A DNA stretch of 8,644 nucleotides from CBDUXP01 sp965371225 [NCBI: uncultured bacterium] (GTDB taxonomy: Bacteria; Abyssobacteria; SURF-5; CBDUXP01), in contig CBDUXP010000103.1 in NCBI GenBank assembly GCA_965371225.1, positions 1-8,644 of the forward strand, in the 5' to 3' direction. Positions 912 to 7,933 of this stretch are shown one piece after another. The notes beneath the pieces were generated by a model that did not search any database, was not told the DNA's origin, and worked only from the letters and a program-made list of their open reading frames with translations. Position 1 is the first letter of the stretch. Every line of letters starts with the position of its first letter. A program made the position numbers and the translations under genes.

Positions 912-1664
912 CTACACGTTCCGCGCGCCCAGACTTTTCCCACCGTCCACGTGGATTACCTGCCCCGTGATGTACCAGGCTTCGTCGCTGACCAAGAACA
1001 GGACCGCATTCGCAATGTCCCGTGGCTTGCCAATGTGTTGGGTCGGCTGCGCCTTGCGCAGTTGCTCCTGGACGTCGGGGCGCAGGGACCGAATGAGCGG
1101 CGTGTCAATCAGGCCCGGTGCGATGACATTGACCGAGACGTCGTACCTGGCCAATTCCAACGCCACGGCCCGGGTCAAGCCGATGATCCCCGCTTTGGAT
1201 GCGGAGTAGTTCGCCTGCCCCCGGTTGCCCAGCCAGGCGCGCGAACTGATGCTACAGATGCGGCCATAGCGTTGCTCGCGCAGGTGCGGGGAGGCGGCTT
1301 TCATGGTCAGGAAACACGACTTCAAGTTCGTATCGACCACGAAGTCCCAATCGTCGCTCGACATGTTGTGGAGCAGATTGTCGCGCAACACGCCCGCATT
1401 GTTCACGAGGAAGTCCAAGCGTCCGTGCTGGGCGACGATCCCGTCGATCATCGCCTTCACGGCCGCCTCGTCCGTCACGTCGCAGGCGTGGGCCGCGGCG
1501 CGGTTGCCCGCGTCCACAATCGTCTGCACGGTGGCGTCCGCGCGGGCCGGATCCAGGTCGTTGACTATGACCCGCGCCCCCTCCTCCGCAAGGCGCACGG
1601 CAATCGCCTGTCCAATGCCCTGTCCCGCCCCGGTGACCACGCCAATCTTGTCTTCCAGTCGCAC
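912..1664 (-). CDS. Short-chain dehydrogenase/reductase, FabG / 3-hydroxyacyl-CoA dehydrogenase-like
   Basis: This 250-residue protein belongs to the classical SDR family and has the usual family length. The cofactor motif TGAGQGIG is at residues 11-18, NNAG at 88-91, and catalytic Asn113, Ser140 or Ser141, Tyr153 and Lys157 are all present (YSASK). Asp36 at the end of strand 2 (VIVNDLD) points to NAD rather than NADP. The tail resembles FabG (ITG...HVDGG). The likely reaction is reversible oxidation of a hydroxyl to a ketone on an acyl-CoA or ring substrate. GTG at 1664-1662 is chosen because GGAGG lies 8 nt upstream and the Rossmann strand begins right after it. The frame stays open much further upstream, but that part lies inside the ligase gene and is not protein-like. 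It is 32 bp downstream of the ligase, in the same operon. An acyl-ACP reductase role is possible but less fitting in this context. Confidence 0.9.
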   Translation of the reverse strand: MRLEDKIGVVTGAGQGIGQAIAVRLAEEGARVIVNDLDPARADATVQTIVDAGNRAAAHACDVTDEAAVKAMIDGIVAQHGRLDFLVNNAGVLRDNLLHNMSSDDWDFVVDTNLKSCFLTMKAASPHLREQRYGRICSISSRAWLGNRGQANYSASKAGIIGLTRAVALELARYDVSVNVIAPGLIDTPLIRSLRPDVQEQLRKAQPTQHIGKPRDIANAVLFLVSDEAWYITGQVIHVDGGKSLGARNV

Positions 1665-1696: not shown

Positions 1697-3268
1697 CTAG
1701 TGCACGTGCCGCGCCTGGCCCGCCCAGTACGGTTCCCGCAGCACGCGCTTGAGCACCTTGCCCGAAGCGTTCCGCGGCAGTTCGTCGATGAAATCTACCG
1801 AAGTCGGCGCCTTGAAATGCGCTAGCCGTTCGCGGCAATAGCCGATGAGCGCCCCCGCCTCGGGCCGGGCTCCGTCGCGTGGCACGACCACCGCCTTGAT
1901 CGTCTCCCCCCACCGGTCGCTTGGAACGCCGATCACGGCGACTTCGCGTACCGCCGGATGCGTGTACAACACCTCCTCGACCTCGCGGGGATAGACGTTC
2001 TCGGCGCCGGTGACAATCATGTCCTTCTTGCGATCCACGATATAGATGTACCCGTCCGCATCGCGGAACGCGAGGTCGCCCGTGTGAAACCAGCCATCGC
2101 GTATCGCAGCCGCCGTCGCGTCCGGCTGGTTCCAATAGCCCTTCATGACGTTCCGCCCGCGCGCGATGATCTCGCCGATATCCTCCGGGGCGCACTCGGT
2201 GCCCGCCTCGTCTACGATCCGGACCTCCACGTTGTAGGCGGGACGGCCGCAGCTCTGGATGCGCCGCGCGCCGGCGCCCTCGGTCACGTGGTCGGCGGCG
2301 GGGAGCACGCAGAGCACGGGGCTCGTTTCCGTCAGGCCATAGCCCTGCGCGAACTGGCACGGGAACCGGTCGAGCGCGGCGCGCAGCCGGTCCGCCGGGA
2401 TGGAGGACCCGCCGTACACCACCAGCCGCAAGCTGGACAGGTCATAGTCGTCGAACGCGGGGTGTTCCAAAAGGAAATTGATCATGGCGGGCACGAGCAG
2501 CGTGACGGTGACCTTCTCCCGTTCCACCGCGCCGAGCACCGCGTCGGGATCGAACTCGCGGATCACCACGTTGCCGCCGCCCGCGTAGGTCATCCCGTAG
2601 AACAACTCCAGGTCGGCGCAGTGGTACAGGGGCGCCACGTGCAGATAGATGTCGCTCGCGTTGTAATCGCGCTCGTAGTTCGTCGTCAACGTGTTCGCGA
2701 TCATGTTGGTATGCGTCAGCATGGCGCCCTTGGGCCGGCCCGTCGTCCCGCTCGTATACATCTGCAGCACCACGTCCCCCGGTTCCCGTCCGACCGGCGT
2801 TGGCGCCGGCGGGGCCGCGGCCAGGAGCGCGTCGTAGGCCGGCGTCCCCTCCGTGCCCCCCTCCAGGCAGACGAATCGTTCGACGCCTGCGAGTCCGGTA
2901 CGAAGCTGGGCCACGGTCGCGGCGTACTCCCGGCTGAACAGCAAGGTGGTGGCTGTGCTGTCGTCGAGGATGTACCGCAGTTCGGGTTCCGCCAGGCGAT
3001 AGTTCAGCGGCACCGCCACGGCGCCGAGCGTTGGCAGTGCAAAGTAGAGTTCCAGGTAGTAGTGGCTGTTTTTGTCGAGGATGGCCACACGGTCGCCCGG
3101 CGCAATCCCCATCTGTTGCAGCATCGCCGCGGCGCGCGCCACCCGCTGCTGGAACTCGCGATAAGTCAGCCGCAGGTCGCCGCTGACCACAGCGGTCTTG
3201 GCCGGCTGCGCGGTTGCGGCGCGCTCGAGCAAGTCCGTGATCAGAGTCGGCTCAAACAGGTCCGCCAT
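1697..3268 (-). CDS. ATP-dependent acyl-CoA ligase (AMP-forming, fatty-acid/aryl-CoA synthetase family)
   Basis: This 523-residue protein is a complete class I adenylate-forming enzyme that activates a carboxylic acid with ATP and joins it to CoA. The P-loop motif YTSGTTGRPKGAMLTH is at residues 171-186, GYGLTE at 309-314, WFHTGD at 393-398 and DRKKDMI at 412-418. The catalytic lysine is Lys504 in PRNASGK. The large N-terminal domain ends near residue 411, followed by the mobile C-terminal domain. The start at 3268 (MADLFEPTL) is preferred over an in-frame extension of 33 codons because family homology begins near residue 8 and a G-rich stretch precedes the ATG. It is the first gene of the minus-strand unit, with the dehydrogenase following, and is divergent from the CoA-transferase operon. 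The acid substrate cannot be read from the sequence. A medium- or long-chain, alicyclic or aromatic acid would fit. Confidence 0.93.
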   Translation of the reverse strand: MADLFEPTLITDLLERAATAQPAKTAVVSGDLRLTYREFQQRVARAAAMLQQMGIAPGDRVAILDKNSHYYLELYFALPTLGAVAVPLNYRLAEPELRYILDDSTATTLLFSREYAATVAQLRTGLAGVERFVCLEGGTEGTPAYDALLAAAPPAPTPVGREPGDVVLQMYTSGTTGRPKGAMLTHTNMIANTLTTNYERDYNASDIYLHVAPLYHCADLELFYGMTYAGGGNVVIREFDPDAVLGAVEREKVTVTLLVPAMINFLLEHPAFDDYDLSSLRLVVYGGSSIPADRLRAALDRFPCQFAQGYGLTETSPVLCVLPAADHVTEGAGARRIQSCGRPAYNVEVRIVDEAGTECAPEDIGEIIARGRNVMKGYWNQPDATAAAIRDGWFHTGDLAFRDADGYIYIVDRKKDMIVTGAENVYPREVEEVLYTHPAVREVAVIGVPSDRWGETIKAVVVPRDGARPEAGALIGYCRERLAHFKAPTSVDFIDELPRNASGKVLKRVLREPYWAGQARHVH

Positions 3269-3324
3269 GCGTTCCCCCCCGCGTGGGCCGGAGGATATCA
3301 CACCGAAATCGCGGCGCCTGCCGC

Positions 3325-3396: not shown

Positions 3397-5124
3397 GTGG
3401 CCAAGGCCCGCCGGTCCAAACTGAAATCGCTCGCCGCCGCTGCCCGGCTCGTGCCCGATGGCACGAACCTGGCCCTCGGTGGCTTCAGCATCCACAACCG
3501 CCCCTGTGGATTTGCCCGGGCGCTGGTGGCCCGCGGCGCGAAGAACCTCACGCTGTACGGCAGCCCCATTGGCTCGTTCGACCTGGAGCTGCTCATCGCT
3601 GCCGAGTGCGCGTCGGCCTCGGCGGTGCCGGTCATTTCCTTCGAGCAACATGGCCTCGCGCCCATGTATCGCCACCGGGCCGAGACGAAGCAGCTCACGA
3701 TTCTGGAAGGCGATGAAGCGACCCTCGTAGGCGGATACATGGCCACGATCGAGAATGTGCCCTACCACCCCATTACCTCGGTCAAAGGCTGCGACCTGCT
3801 GGAGCACTCGCCGCACATTATCCGGGACCCGGGCGCGCCGACGATTGCGGCCGACGGTCTCATCCACGTGCGGCCGCTGGCGCCGGACGTGTGCGTGATC
3901 CACGCGGCGGAAGCGGATATCTACGGCAACGTGCGCCACGGCGGCGCCGTGTCGTGTGATTTGGTGTTGGCCAAAGCCTCGACCACGGTGATTGTCACCG
4001 TCGAGCGGCTTATCGACCCGGAAGCGATGGCCAGCCGGCCGGCGCGCATTACTGTGCCGGGGTATCTGGTGGATGCAGTGGTCGAGCTGCCGTTCGGTGC
4101 CCATCCCACCTCCTGTCACGGGGAGTACATTCACGACGAACAGCACTTGGCCGCGTATAGCGCCGCCGCGACGTCGACGGCCAAGGGGCGCGACAAACGG
4201 GCCCTCGACCAGTACCTGCGGCAATATGCCAAGGTGAAGCCAGATGCATACGTGGCGAAATGCGGCGGGAAACGGACGTTACGGCGGCGGTTGTCGCCCT
4301 CCCCCACGCGCCACGCCGCCGCTCCACCCCGCGCAAACCAAAAAGCGTCTATAAAGGATGGCAAGGGGTATGCGCCGCAAGAACTCATGGCCGTCCTGCT
4401 CTCGCGAGAGATTCGCGACGGGGAGACGTCGCTGGTCGGGCTCGCCTCGTCTCTAGCGCTTGGGGCGGCGCTGTTGGCGCAGCGGCGGCACGCCCCGAAC
4501 AGTACGGTCGTCACCACGGCGGGCTTTGTGAACCCCAAACCGAAAGCGTTGTACCTCTCCTGCAGCGATGGACGGTACGGGCACGTGTGCGAGGGCTATC
4601 TGGACTTTTACGAGATCTTCGAACTGTCGGAGTGTCACGCGCTCGATTTCTTCTGTTACGGCGGCTTGCAGATCGACCAGTTTGGCAATGTGAATCTGAC
4701 GGTTCTGGGGTCCCTGGACGCGCCGAAGCTGCGCGGGCCCGGGCTTGCGAACATCAGCTTTGCCGTGACCGCGAAACGCATGTACCTGCAGAGCGTGAAC
4801 CACTCCACGCGGACATTCGTCCCGCGGGTGGACTACATCTCCGCGCCGGGCCACATCGACGGGCCCGAGGGCCGGCGCAACGCCGGCATCACCACGGAGG
4901 GGCCCGTGCTCTGCGTCACCCCGCTGTGCACGTTCGGGTTCCCCCCCGAGACGCGCACGATGACCGTGCAGACGCTGCATCCGGGCGTGCCGTGGGCGGA
5001 CGTGGAGCAGCACACCGGTTTCCCGCTCACGCAGCCTACACGCCTGAAACGCACGAAACCGCCCACGCGCGACGAACTCGCTCAGCTTCGCGCCATTGAC
5101 ACCACCGGTATCCTGCGCCGGTGA
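3397..5124 (+). CDS. Fused alpha-beta family I CoA-transferase-like protein (GctAB/IpdAB type)
   Basis: This 575-residue protein joins both subunits of a GctAB- or IpdAB-type family I CoA-transferase. The alpha half (about 1-298) begins with ALGGF (26-30), carries D-I-Y-G-N-V at 174-179 and the GctA-like VDAVVELPFGAHPTSCHG ending at 242. The beta half (about 324-575) has YGGLQIDQFGNVN (421-433), DYISAPGHIDGP (479-490) and LHPGV (527-531). The D-x-aromatic-G-N-V motif in both halves reflects their common fold. Residues 289-323 are a basic, low-complexity linker. In my recalled alignment, GctB's catalytic Glu (VESG) corresponds to Thr374 in TTAG, so CoA transfer is uncertain. IpdB also appears to lack this Glu. 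An acidic cluster at Glu104-Asp106-Glu107 of the alpha half matches the region I recall as active in IpdA. The GTG start follows GAGGGG by 6 nt. It leads the plus-strand operon, 16 bp before the next gene. Confidence 0.85.
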   Translation: MAKARRSKLKSLAAAARLVPDGTNLALGGFSIHNRPCGFARALVARGAKNLTLYGSPIGSFDLELLIAAECASASAVPVISFEQHGLAPMYRHRAETKQLTILEGDEATLVGGYMATIENVPYHPITSVKGCDLLEHSPHIIRDPGAPTIAADGLIHVRPLAPDVCVIHAAEADIYGNVRHGGAVSCDLVLAKASTTVIVTVERLIDPEAMASRPARITVPGYLVDAVVELPFGAHPTSCHGEYIHDEQHLAAYSAAATSTAKGRDKRALDQYLRQYAKVKPDAYVAKCGGKRTLRRRLSPSPTRHAAAPPRANQKASIKDGKGYAPQELMAVLLSREIRDGETSLVGLASSLALGAALLAQRRHAPNSTVVTTAGFVNPKPKALYLSCSDGRYGHVCEGYLDFYEIFELSECHALDFFCYGGLQIDQFGNVNLTVLGSLDAPKLRGPGLANISFAVTAKRMYLQSVNHSTRTFVPRVDYISAPGHIDGPEGRRNAGITTEGPVLCVTPLCTFGFPPETRTMTVQTLHPGVPWADVEQHTGFPLTQPTRLKRTKPPTRDELAQLRAIDTTGILRR

Positions 5125-5140
5125 GCCCATTGGAGGAACC

Positions 5141-5941
5141 ATGTCGGCAGACCTCGTACTGACTGAAGTCCTGGACGATCACATCTATAAGGTGACGCTG
5201 AACCGGCCGGAGAAGCGCAATGCGGTGAATCCCGCCCTGCAGGAGGCCGCCTGGAAGGCCACGCAACGCTTCAAGGAGAACGATGACCTCTGGGTCATGC
5301 TGCTCACGGCGGCGGGGGACAAGGCGTTCTGCGCCGGCGCGGACCTGCAGGAACTGATCCTGGGCGGCATGAGCGGCGCCTACGACCCCGTCGAGATCGG
5401 GCTTACCACTGCGGGGTTTCTCGGGCTCACGCGCAATTACGACTGCTACAAGCCGATCGTAGTCGCCGTCAACGGCCACTGCCTGGCCGGGGGCACGGAG
5501 ACCATCCTCGCGTGCGACCTGCGCATCGCGGCGGAACACGCCACCTTCGGGCTGACTGAGACGAAGTGGGCAATCTTGCCGGGCGCGGGCGGCACGCAGC
5601 GGCTGCCGCGGAGCATCACCCTCGCGCGTGCCATGGAAATTATCCTCGTGGCGGAGCCCATCAGCGCGCAAACGGCGCTCGAATGGGGCCTGATTAATAA
5701 GGTGGTGCCCGCAGACCAGTTGCAAGACGAAGCGTTGCAACTATGCCGGACCTTACTGGAACGCGGGCCGCTGGCGCTGCGGAATGCCAAGCGCGCGATG
5801 ATCGAGGGCATGAGCCTGCCGCTGAAGGAGGGGATGAAGCTGGAGGGGCGGATGTTCGTGGAGCTGCAGCAGACGGAGGACGCGCGGGAGGGCCCGATGG
5901 CGTTTATGCAAAAGCGGAAGCCGGAATTCAAGGGCAAGTAA
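5141..5941 (+). CDS. Enoyl-CoA hydratase/isomerase family protein (crotonase), first copy
   Basis: This 266-residue crotonase has the normal family length. The first oxyanion-hole segment is FCAGAD (63-68) and the second lies at AGGTE (116-120). The two glutamates that act on water in classical hydratases are both present: Glu120, and Glu140 in the segment FGLTET. The surroundings are slightly unusual, since the usual GGGCE is AGGTE and the usual PE(I/V) is TET. PGAGGTQRLPR follows at 147-157. The expected reaction is syn-hydration of a trans-2-enoyl-CoA, although isomerase, hydrolase or ring-opening activities exist in this family. The ATG start at 5141 has GGAGG 4 nt upstream. It sits 16 bp after the fused CoA-transferase-like gene and 2 bp before its paralogue, so the genes are surely cotranscribed. 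An open frame extends 15 codons further upstream into the preceding gene and is not used in this call. Confidence 0.92.
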   Translation: MSADLVLTEVLDDHIYKVTLNRPEKRNAVNPALQEAAWKATQRFKENDDLWVMLLTAAGDKAFCAGADLQELILGGMSGAYDPVEIGLTTAGFLGLTRNYDCYKPIVVAVNGHCLAGGTETILACDLRIAAEHATFGLTETKWAILPGAGGTQRLPRSITLARAMEIILVAEPISAQTALEWGLINKVVPADQLQDEALQLCRTLLERGPLALRNAKRAMIEGMSLPLKEGMKLEGRMFVELQQTEDAREGPMAFMQKRKPEFKGK

Positions 5942-5943
5942 CC

Positions 5944-6726
5944 GTGTCCTTCGACACCCTCCTGGTGGAGAGCGACGGGCCCGTCCTGACCGTCACGCTC
6001 AACCGTCCGCCCATGAACCCGATCAACCGGCAGATGCAGGCGGACATTCGCGCCATGCTGGAGGGCGAGGGGGCGGACGAATCGATTCGCGCGATCATCC
6101 TGACGGGCGCGGGCGACCGCGCGTTCTGCGCCGGGGCGGACATCACCGAGTTCCCGGAGATCAACGCCGAGGGCGCGCGCGAGGCGCTCATTACGAATGT
6201 GCACCGGCTCATGCGCCGCGTCATGCTGCATCCGAAGCCCATCATCGCCGCAGTGAATGGTTACGCGCTCGGCGGCGGCTGCGAGCTGGCCATGGCGTGC
6301 CACTTCCGGGTGGTGGCGGAGACCGCGCAGGTGGGCTTGCCGGAAATCCGGCTCGGGATCGTGCCCGCCTACGGCGGCACGCAGATGCTGCCGCGGCTGG
6401 TAGGCAAGGCGCGCGCGTTGGAGATGATGCTGCTCGCCCGCCGCATCACCGCCGCCGAGGCGTTGGACTACGGCTGGGCCACGAGCACCGCGCCCGCGGC
6501 GACGCTGATGGAAGAGGCGCGGGCGCTCGCCACCCGCCTCGCGAAACAGGCGCCGCTCGCCGTCAACGGGATCCTGAAATCCGTGATGCTGGGGATGGAG
6601 ACCACCCTCGAAGCAGGCTTCGAGATCGAGCGCGAGATGGCGGCGATCACGCACAACACCGCCGACGCGGTTGAGGGCGCTACAGCATTTTTCCAGAAGC
6701 GCGAGCCCAAGTTCCAGGGCAAGTAG
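5944..6726 (+). CDS. Enoyl-CoA hydratase/isomerase family protein (crotonase), second copy
   Basis: This 260-residue protein is a more canonical crotonase than its neighbour. It has FCAGAD (61-66), ALGGGCELAMAC (108-119) with Glu114, and GLPEIRLG (131-138) with Glu134, followed by PAYGGTQ (141-147). Both catalytic glutamates are therefore in their textbook settings, supporting true 2-enoyl-CoA hydratase activity in beta-oxidation. The GTG start lies 2 bp after the first copy's stop codon, with AAGGG 9 nt upstream. The frame is open upstream into the first copy, but that part has no crotonase character. The two proteins end alike (AF-QKR-P-F-GK), so they are paralogues. Their divergence in the active-site loops suggests different substrates or steps rather than simple dosage. 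A gap of 19 bp leads to the family III CoA-transferase. Confidence 0.92.
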   Translation: MSFDTLLVESDGPVLTVTLNRPPMNPINRQMQADIRAMLEGEGADESIRAIILTGAGDRAFCAGADITEFPEINAEGAREALITNVHRLMRRVMLHPKPIIAAVNGYALGGGCELAMACHFRVVAETAQVGLPEIRLGIVPAYGGTQMLPRLVGKARALEMMLLARRITAAEALDYGWATSTAPAATLMEEARALATRLAKQAPLAVNGILKSVMLGMETTLEAGFEIEREMAAITHNTADAVEGATAFFQKREPKFQGK

Positions 6727-6745: not shown

Positions 6746-7933
6746 ATGTTTGCGGGGTCGCTCCAGGGGATTCGGGTCCTGGACCTGACGCGCGTGTTGG
6801 CTGGGCCCTTCGGCGGCGCGCTGCTCGCGGACCTGGGCGCCGAGGTCATCAAGATCGAGGAACCAGGCCGGGGCGACCCCACCCGCGAGATGGGCCCCCC
6901 CGCGCACGGGACGACCGCGTACTTCGTCTCCACGAACCGGAACAAGCAGGGGATGACGCTCGACCTGCGCAAGCCCGAGGGGCAGGCCGTGTTCCACGAT
7001 CTCGTGCGCGTGAGCGACGTGGTGCTGGACAACTTCCGCCCCGGCGTGCTGGCTCGGCTGGGGGCGGACTACGACACGCTGCGCGCCATTAAGCCGGACA
7101 TCATCTGTTGCAGTATCACCGGCTACGGGCCCGACGGCCCGTACGCCCAGGTGCCCGCGTTCGACCTCGCGATCCAGGCGCTGGCCGGGGGCATGAGCGT
7201 GACCGGCGAACCCGGCCGGCCGCCCCTGCGCATGGGGCTGTCCGTCGCGGACTTGGGCGGAGGCATGTTCGCCGCTACCGCCATTTGCGCCGCGCTGGTG
7301 CACCGCGCGCGTACCGGCGAGGGGCAGCGGCTGGACGTGCCGCTCTTGGACACGCACCTGGCCATGCTCACGTACCTGGGGCAGTACTGGCTGAGCTGCG
7401 GGCAAGTGACCGAGCCGGTCGGGAGCGAGCATCCGTCGCTCGCGCCCTACGGCGCGTTTGCTACGCAGGACGGCTACGTGGTGATCGCGGTCATCGGCGA
7501 GAAATTCTGGCACCTGCTCTGCGATTGCCTTGCGGACGATGCCATGCGGACCAATGCGCGGTTCGCCACGAACGCGGAGCGCACGAAGCACAAGGCGGCG
7601 CTGCGGGCCGCGCTCGAGGATCACCTGACCGAACGGCTGACAGCGGACTGGGTGGACCGGCTGCGCGCGGCCGGTGTCCCCTGCGCGCCCGTGAACGACA
7701 TGTCCCAGGTGTTCGAGGATCCGCAGGTCGTCCACCGGCAATTGGTCCGGAAGATAGACACGGACGCGGGCCCCGTTCCCGTCGTGCCCGGCCCGTTCAC
7801 CACGGCCGGTGGCCGCACCGCCGACCCGGACATGGCCCCCGGCCTCGGTGCGGACACAGAGTCCGTACTCGGAGGGCTACTGGGCTACGACAGCGCGCGC
7901 ATCGCGGGATTGCGCGCAGACGGCATCCTCTGA
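6746..7933 (+). CDS. Family III CoA-transferase (CaiB/BaiF type)
   Basis: This 395-residue protein has the usual length and order of the CaiB/BaiF family, whose members form interlocked dimers and move CoA between carboxylic acids. The N-terminus GIRVLDLTRVLAGPFGG (8-24) and LADLGAEVIKIE (27-38) is diagnostic, as are DNFRPGV (95-101) and GYGPDGPY (126-133). The catalytic Asp that forms the acyl anhydride is Asp169 in SVADLGGGMF, the same number as in formyl-CoA transferase. The C-terminal part contains GVPCAPVND, typical of the family. The ATG at 6746 is chosen because the family N-terminus begins about 5 residues later. Its Shine-Dalgarno sequence is weak, so translation may be coupled to the upstream gene 19 bp away. 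It is the last gene of the operon. It could load CoA onto the pathway acid without ATP, or recover CoA from an end product. Donor and acceptor are unknown. Confidence 0.93.
   Translation: MFAGSLQGIRVLDLTRVLAGPFGGALLADLGAEVIKIEEPGRGDPTREMGPPAHGTTAYFVSTNRNKQGMTLDLRKPEGQAVFHDLVRVSDVVLDNFRPGVLARLGADYDTLRAIKPDIICCSITGYGPDGPYAQVPAFDLAIQALAGGMSVTGEPGRPPLRMGLSVADLGGGMFAATAICAALVHRARTGEGQRLDVPLLDTHLAMLTYLGQYWLSCGQVTEPVGSEHPSLAPYGAFATQDGYVVIAVIGEKFWHLLCDCLADDAMRTNARFATNAERTKHKAALRAALEDHLTERLTADWVDRLRAAGVPCAPVNDMSQVFEDPQVVHRQLVRKIDTDAGPVPVVPGPFTTAGGRTADPDMAPGLGADTESVLGGLLGYDSARIAGLRADGIL

Follow-up and report, generated by a model that had tools for sequence, protein, structure and literature searches.

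We found that one gene in the window, by which we mean the whole 8,644-nucleotide stretch of DNA analysed, encodes both halves of a GctAB/IpdAB-type enzyme in a single chain. Where family I CoA-transferases have a catalytic Glu in an E-x-G motif of the beta half, this protein has Thr374, and its alpha half has Glu107 in the column of an IpdA glutamate. The alignments support well the conclusion that neither the window protein nor its closest relative, a two-gene pair of R. opacus B4, is a classical CoA-transferase. The window protein may instead be an IpdAB-like hydrolytic enzyme that cleaves C-C bonds of acyl-CoA esters in some breakdown pathway and has lost the glutamyl-CoA chemistry, a reading that we adopt tentatively and rate just short of even. 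As one chain from one gene, it is a simpler version to express and assay than the two-subunit IpdAB.

The fused protein and its place in the tree

The sequence-only reading had described one frame holding an alpha and a beta half, and this was borne out. Pfam CoA_trans (PF01144) matched above its cut-off in the alpha piece (residues 13-230, E 1.3e-14) and again in the beta piece (3.8e-15). Among PDB chains, the alpha half aligned with GctA (1poi), AibA (5mzw) and IpdA (6con, 6co6, 6coj), and the beta half aligned with GctB, AibB and IpdB chains. The frame has no internal stop, and an alternative in-frame GTG upstream, at 3283, would give a protein of 613 aa. The features of the window are collected in Table 1.

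Table 1. Features of the window, with positions, strand and the evidence for each
Feature	Positions	Strand	Evidence or remark
SDR / FabG-like reductase	912..1664	-	PF13561; NCBIfam PRK12826.1-2 above cut-off; GTG 1664 assumed
AMP-binding acyl-CoA ligase, divergent	1697..3268	-	PF00501/PF13193; NCBIfam PRK06187 above cut-off
Single-chain GctAB/IpdAB-type protein	3397..5124	+	575 aa; GTG start
Alpha half, about residues 1-298	3397..4290	+	HMMER to 5mzw_A, 1poi_A, 6con_A, 6co6_A
Glu83, second candidate catalytic residue	3643..3645	+	Alignment survey
Asp106, also in IpdAB clade and AibA	3712..3714	+	Alignment survey
Glu107, candidate catalytic residue; IpdA Glu column (Ala in 6coj)	3715..3717	+	
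Linker, about residues 299-323	4291..4365	+	Pro/Ser/Ala-rich; stop-free
Beta half, residues 324-575 and stop	4366..5124	+	HMMER to 1poi_B, AibB chains, 6con_B, 6co6_B
Thr374, column of GctB Glu54 / AibB Cys56	4516..4518	+	HMMER alignments; survey
Crotonase-family enoyl-CoA hydratase 1	5141..5941	+	PF00378
Crotonase-family enoyl-CoA hydratase 2	5944..6726	+	PF00378; GTG 5944 assumed, scanned as 5956-6726
Family III (CaiB/BaiF) CoA-transferase	6746..7933	+	PF02515, E 9.5e-131

Relatives were collected with tblastn. Of 72,556 plasmid records, 247 matched, all below 60% identity, and 25 pairs were taken from the records retrieved. In a set of 398 Pseudomonadota genomes, 54 matched at E <= 1e-15 and 2 at E <= 1e-45. 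Three repeat loci were omitted, 92 alpha/beta pairs were extracted, and 87 were kept; the five discarded were four copies of pairs already included and one match of poor quality. The 87 pairs, the window protein and four references gave 92 rows, 63 of which entered the tree once 29 near-duplicates had been omitted; columns 107, 374 and 375 were masked. The window protein grouped with the R. opacus pROB02 genes at 100/97, three roseobacter pairs joined them at 100/98, and four more rows completed a nine-row window clade at 96/99. Neither the IpdAB clade (12 rows, 100/100) nor the Glu-bearing transferase clade (21 rows, 98/96) includes it. We therefore rejected IpdAB orthology. The proposal that the protein is a fused member of the IpdAB type was thus not borne out: it belongs to a separate clade, in which Glu107 is present in 3 of 9 rows. 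Long branches lead to AibAB, GctAB and the rows L015 and L087. AibAB lies apart from the window protein on a weakly placed branch of 2.04, and the tree program flagged two long-branch joins, one of AibAB with a clade of fused proteins and one of IpdAB with L037/L057.

Since the relatives within the window clade are two genes, the fusion is local. Their alpha and beta genes overlap by 4 bases at four of the five junctions inspected and are spaced by 2 bases at the fifth, the linker is absent from all five, and the remaining three clade relatives (L004, L009 and L012) have beta-alpha gene order. The fusion is known from a single record, where a read-level error is conceivable, and GC3 of the linker codons (288-324) is 0.70, somewhat below the 0.82 and 0.84 of the halves. 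All this would agree with two ordinary neighbouring genes having been joined by an artefact of assembly or sequencing, an explanation that concerns the fusion only and not the chemistry. However, there is no ATG or GTG in codons 287-330 from which a separate beta protein could start, only a single TTG at 299. The first ATG afterwards, codon 331, lies within the conserved beta start, and the GTGs at 280 and 286 lie within the alpha tail. The halves also share one frame, so a single indel would be insufficient as the cause, and fused proteins of the same type occur elsewhere. We consider an artefact highly improbable. The shared frame and the lack of ATG and GTG in codons 287-330 likewise make an origin through a lost stop unlikely.

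The other fused proteins, three of the 87 pairs (G052, G056 and G332), are single chains of about 590 aa from three Pseudomonadota genomes and form one clade (L080, L081, L082), and we rejected the idea that fusion is unique to the window on their account. Like the window protein, they have no Glu near the beta column, and they have CaiB, SDR and crotonase genes within 5.5 kb. Unlike it, they have Ala at 107; they are 27-28% identical to it and distant in the tree, on which the fusion state needs two changes.

Residues in the beta and alpha catalytic columns

HMMER set VESG of GctB over TTAG of the window protein without a gap, which places Glu54 on Thr374. In four AibB variant chains (5n02, 5n00, 5n03 and 5n01, with S, A, V or N), the variable residue falls in the same column. 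Because these chains differ exactly there, the column is that of AibB Cys56, which stands in for the Gct Glu (PMC7756340). The earlier placement of Thr374 in the Glu54 column thus stood, and the Glu that a proper alignment might have brought into that column is not there. The local sequence is VVTTAGFVN (residues 371-376, VVTTAG), and between 374 and Asp391 the window protein has no acidic residue. The glycine-rich GSGG of GctB reads GLAN, and the motif GGxQxDxxGNxN, which we take to be part of the CoA site, is kept. The PF01144 fold and the kept motif would fit a classical family I CoA-transferase whose nucleophile is a different Glu of the protein. However, the Glu54 column and its surroundings contain no Glu, GSGG is replaced, and Glu104 is generic. 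We regard this explanation as very improbable indeed.

The beta Glu is missing from IpdAB as well. Gly57 of RHA1 IpdB is described as the counterpart of Glu54 (PMC5380842). When a Sphingobium IpdB-type protein was aligned to GctB, Gly again fell in the Glu54 column, and all 10 surveyed pairs of the IpdAB clade have G or S there.

In the alpha half, HMMER alignments of 6co6_A and 6coj_A differ by Glu versus Ala within the motif MDEGM, and the window counterpart of this residue is Glu107. The IpdA residue is presumably Glu105, which Crowe et al. in 2018 reportedly found to be essential for hydrolysis. The sequence-only reading had named Glu104 or Glu107 as the candidate catalytic residue. Glu107 kept its candidacy through the IpdA column; Glu104 was rejected, because all 42 Glu-bearing transferases have Glu there too and the position does not discriminate. 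In column 107, all 10 surveyed pairs of the IpdAB clade have Glu. The window clade has E, A or G in this column, and the eight clade-mates of the window protein have Glu in two (L002 and L015), Ala in three (the roseobacter pairs) and Gly in three. All 9 window-clade and all 10 IpdAB-clade rows have Asp at position 106, where 40 of the 42 Glu-bearing transferases have Ser. At position 83, all 9 window-clade rows carry Glu and all 10 IpdAB-clade rows carry Asp, against Pro in 39 of the 42 Glu-bearing transferases. Predicted models were of low confidence, with a mean pLDDT of 34.6 for the whole protein and 35.6 for the beta half alone.

We read beta column 374 and alpha column 107 across the survey from MAFFT alignments. 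Glu was present in the beta column only in 42 of the 87 pairs, in the alpha column only in 19 and in neither in 14, and the beta column was gapped in 12. The two occurred together in 0 of 87 pairs, many of which are near relatives. On the tree as coded, the beta-Glu state changes once (more often if the roseobacter rows are Glu-bearing) and the alpha-Glu state four times; the mutual exclusion of the two rests on few events. Register was uncertain in 6 of the 14 pairs with neither, and in 18 non-Glu rows a Glu lies no more than three columns away (10 in the IpdAB clade, 3 roseobacter, 3 on ethene plasmids and 2 gapped). For the ten IpdAB-clade rows, the register is backed by the Sphingobium-GctB alignment and by PMC5380842. 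For the roseobacter rows, MAFFT sets the Glu one column past 374, and HMMER, in the one of three tested, aligns it with Glu54 and has a gap of one residue further on. Judged from these alignments, the three roseobacter pairs may be Glu-bearing, and we abandoned the description of the whole window clade as Glu-less and for this reason lowered our rating of the hydrolytic reading from even to just below it; Glu is clearly absent in 6 of its 9 rows. In the ethene-plasmid rows, HMMER to AibB (one tested) leaves the Glu off the column, adjoining a gap, and in the two gapped rows the nearby Glu falls outside the motif. Since alpha position 107 is not Glu in those eight rows, the exclusion holds under either register, and the roseobacter Ala107 fits it if those rows are Glu-bearing transferases.

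As aligned, 45 of the 87 pairs lack Glu in the catalytic column, 12 of them by a gap and 6 with uncertain register, and pairs of the surveyed kind often carry a plain CoA-transferase annotation. The alpha-107 and beta-374 columns, read jointly, offer a simple test for hydrolase-like proteins.

A further type was seen in all 12 pairs with a gapped beta column (L058, L059, L063-L067, L069, L073, L075, L088 and L090). These have alpha Cys at 107 in the motif (A/S)TCPA, and their beta catalytic column is gapped or misaligned; CaiB lies within 5.5 kb in 4 of the 12.

Relatives and gene neighbourhood

The R. opacus B4 pROB02 pair (WP_148222693.1 / WP_012687199.1) is the closest relative found, with 42% identity in the alpha and 49% in the beta half. 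Like the window protein, it keeps Glu107 and has CaiB and crotonase neighbours. On Glu54 it has Pro, with MPSG over VESG and no gap, where the window protein has Thr. Unlike the window protein, it is encoded by two genes, which overlap by 4 bases. Directly downstream is a CaiB gene whose product is 44% identical to the window CaiB, followed by another CoA transferase and a crotonase; further on are two 3-hydroxyacyl-CoA dehydrogenases and a second enoyl-CoA hydratase-related gene. A literature search for the pair found no function. Among the papers listed by a search on IpdAB-like and AibAB names, none had a title about the window clade, which is not proof that no such paper exists.

IpdAB, the COCHEA-CoA hydrolase (6con, 6co6, 6coj), resembles the window protein in the CoA_trans fold of both halves, the absent beta Glu, alpha Glu107 and Asp106, an acid at position 83 and crotonase neighbours. 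It differs in being two chains, and blastp identity of the window protein to IpdAB-clade pairs is about 26-31%. The window protein reads TTAG where IpdAB-clade proteins read DGEA/DSE, and it has a CaiB neighbour, in contrast to 0 of 10 IpdAB-clade pairs. IpdAB is described as a retro-Claisen ring hydrolase (PMC6678751), and it showed no CoA transfer between short acyl-CoAs (PMC5380842). GctAB, the glutaconate CoA-transferase (1poi), has the same alpha/beta arrangement, and among PDB chains the beta half matches GctB best. However, besides Glu54 in place of Thr, GctAB has Gln for Glu107 and Ser for Asp106 in the MAFFT alignment.

AibA/AibB, a 3-methylglutaconyl-CoA decarboxylase (5mzw and variants), suggests another activity, in which a glutaconyl-type CoA ester would sit in the pocket and be decarboxylated directly, with no covalent intermediate. 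Among PDB chains the alpha half matches AibA best (E 8.2e-24), and AibA shares Asp106; AibB chains are second after GctB for the beta half (E 2e-18 to 3.7e-18), and the beta Glu is replaced in both systems, by Cys56 or Thr374. AibB variants in which Cys56 is replaced by Ala, Ser, Asn or Val remain active (PMC7756340), so a Thr in this position might be tolerated too. However, AibA has Gly for Glu107 and Ser for Glu83. AibB Gly134, whose backbone NH is the one enolate contact described (PMC7756340), aligns to window Asn452 (GVAG over GLAN; numbering from the Cys56 column). AibAB is also two chains and did not group with the window protein, though its branch is long and weakly placed. We think a decarboxylase of this kind unlikely.

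The neighbours of the gene are listed in Table 1; the C-terminal part of LeuA lies at the right edge of the window. The seven window proteins scanned include neither an acyl-CoA dehydrogenase nor a thiolase, which leaves the pathway incomplete in the window. None of the NCBIfam matches listed put a window protein above a steroid-specific cut-off, and a search of viral contigs found no match. We scanned 68 of the 87 pairs, those with at least 2.5 kb on both flanks, for matches within 5.5 kb (E <= 1e-10) to one PcaF-like thiolase and to the CaiB, crotonases, SDR and ligase of the window. Of 24 Glu-bearing pairs, 19 had the PcaF-like thiolase and 1 had CaiB. Of 34 Glu-less pairs outside the IpdAB clade, 16 had CaiB and 1 had the thiolase, and IpdAB-clade pairs had crotonase in 9 of 10, SDR in 4 of 10 and no CaiB. 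When the roseobacter pairs were counted as Glu-bearing, the figures became thiolase 20/27 and CaiB 1/27 for Glu-bearing pairs, and CaiB 16/31 and thiolase 0/31 for Glu-less ones. CaiB was present within this distance in 4 of 8 clade-mates (L002, L004, L009 and L012). The window neighbours (ligase, SDR, crotonases and type III CoA-transferase) resemble those of other Glu-less loci.

These neighbours also bear on whether the window protein could transfer CoA without the Glu. ThnP, a family I enzyme (Cat1), is described as transferring CoA intramolecularly without the usual active-site Glu (PMC11659651); by that precedent, an absent Glu alone does not exclude CoA transfer. The window protein might likewise act intramolecularly or with substrate assistance on a dicarboxylic substrate, by way of the kind of internal anhydride that has been proposed for ThnP, and its sister roseobacter proteins may be Glu-bearing, so that transferase ancestry may be near. 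However, ThnP belongs to the Cat1 subgroup and is not of the GctAB type, the cluster already includes a type III CoA-transferase, and the PcaF-like thiolase of the Glu-bearing pairs is absent from the seven window proteins scanned. Glu-less transfer is, in our estimate, quite improbable.

Two sets of relatives deserve separate mention. In the roseobacter pair L010 (4455-16070), which belongs to the window clade, the alpha half has Ala107 and the beta motif is AGEM. Its neighbours are acyl-CoA dehydrogenase, biotin carboxylase, carboxyltransferase and AtuA-family genes, which suggests a terpene-like or glutaconyl-type pathway. The pairs on ethene/vinyl chloride plasmids of Nocardioides JS614 and M. 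chubuense NBB4 (L013, 7944-9685; L014, 7941-9688; L083, 3944-5691) have alpha Cys at 107 and the beta motif VEGATYA. MAFFT places the Glu of this motif outside the catalytic column, with uncertain register. The best PDB match of the JS614 beta protein is AibB (E 9.7e-30), and its Glu is off the column in HMMER also. This two-component CoA-transferase is presumed to transfer CoA to malonate (PMC8727900). Going by these alignments, the ethene-plasmid pairs are candidate decarboxylases, and this deserves a test.

A hydrolytic reading of the window protein

The sequence-only reading had called the protein a hydrolase or C-C bond-cleaving enzyme rather than a transferase. The lack of a beta Glu and the IpdA-type Glu107 speak for this. 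The beta-Glu loss alone does not show hydrolysis, since AibAB (PMC7756340) and ThnP (PMC11659651) are also without this Glu. What favours the IpdAB-like hydrolytic reading is that IpdAB shares three alpha-side positions (83, 106 and 107) with the window protein, whereas AibAB shares only Asp106, and that the R. opacus pair likewise combines Glu107 with no beta Glu. The mutual exclusion of alpha-Glu107 and beta-Glu374 across the survey, the neighbourhood figures and the failure of IpdAB to transfer CoA between short acyl-CoAs also count in its favour. Against it, 6 of 8 clade-mates have Ala or Gly at 107, the window protein stands outside the IpdAB clade, the exclusion depends on few events, the pathway is incomplete in the window, and CaiB is near only 4 of the 8 clade-mates. 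Glu83 and Asp106 may mark lineage rather than chemistry, since they are common to the roseobacter pairs, which are possibly Glu-bearing.

Under the hydrolytic reading, a carboxylic acid would be activated by the ligase or through CoA transfer by the CaiB protein, and crotonase and SDR would yield a 3-oxoacyl-CoA or a vinylogous one. The CoA thioester of this substrate would be held between the alpha and beta halves, and Glu107 (or Glu83) would activate water or handle a proton. The carbonyl carbon would then be attacked and the C-C bond broken (retro-Claisen) without a covalent enzyme intermediate, so that a ring is opened or an acid released. The fusion would fix 1:1 pairing of the halves. 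A more specific version is possible but doubtful. It takes the window protein to be a single-chain CoA-ester hydrolase that opens a ring or cleaves a chain, with the R. opacus pair as its two-gene form, catalysis shifted from the beta Glu to an alpha acid independently of IpdAB, and a non-steroid substrate made with the type III CoA-transferase.

At the left edge of the window, on the minus strand (1-166), lies the start of a Lys/Arg-rich, histone-H1-like protein (MATKKKAAKRKSRKRKAAKRK...) that continues off the edge. It includes a perfect 27-base tandem repeat encoding KRKGRKKAA.
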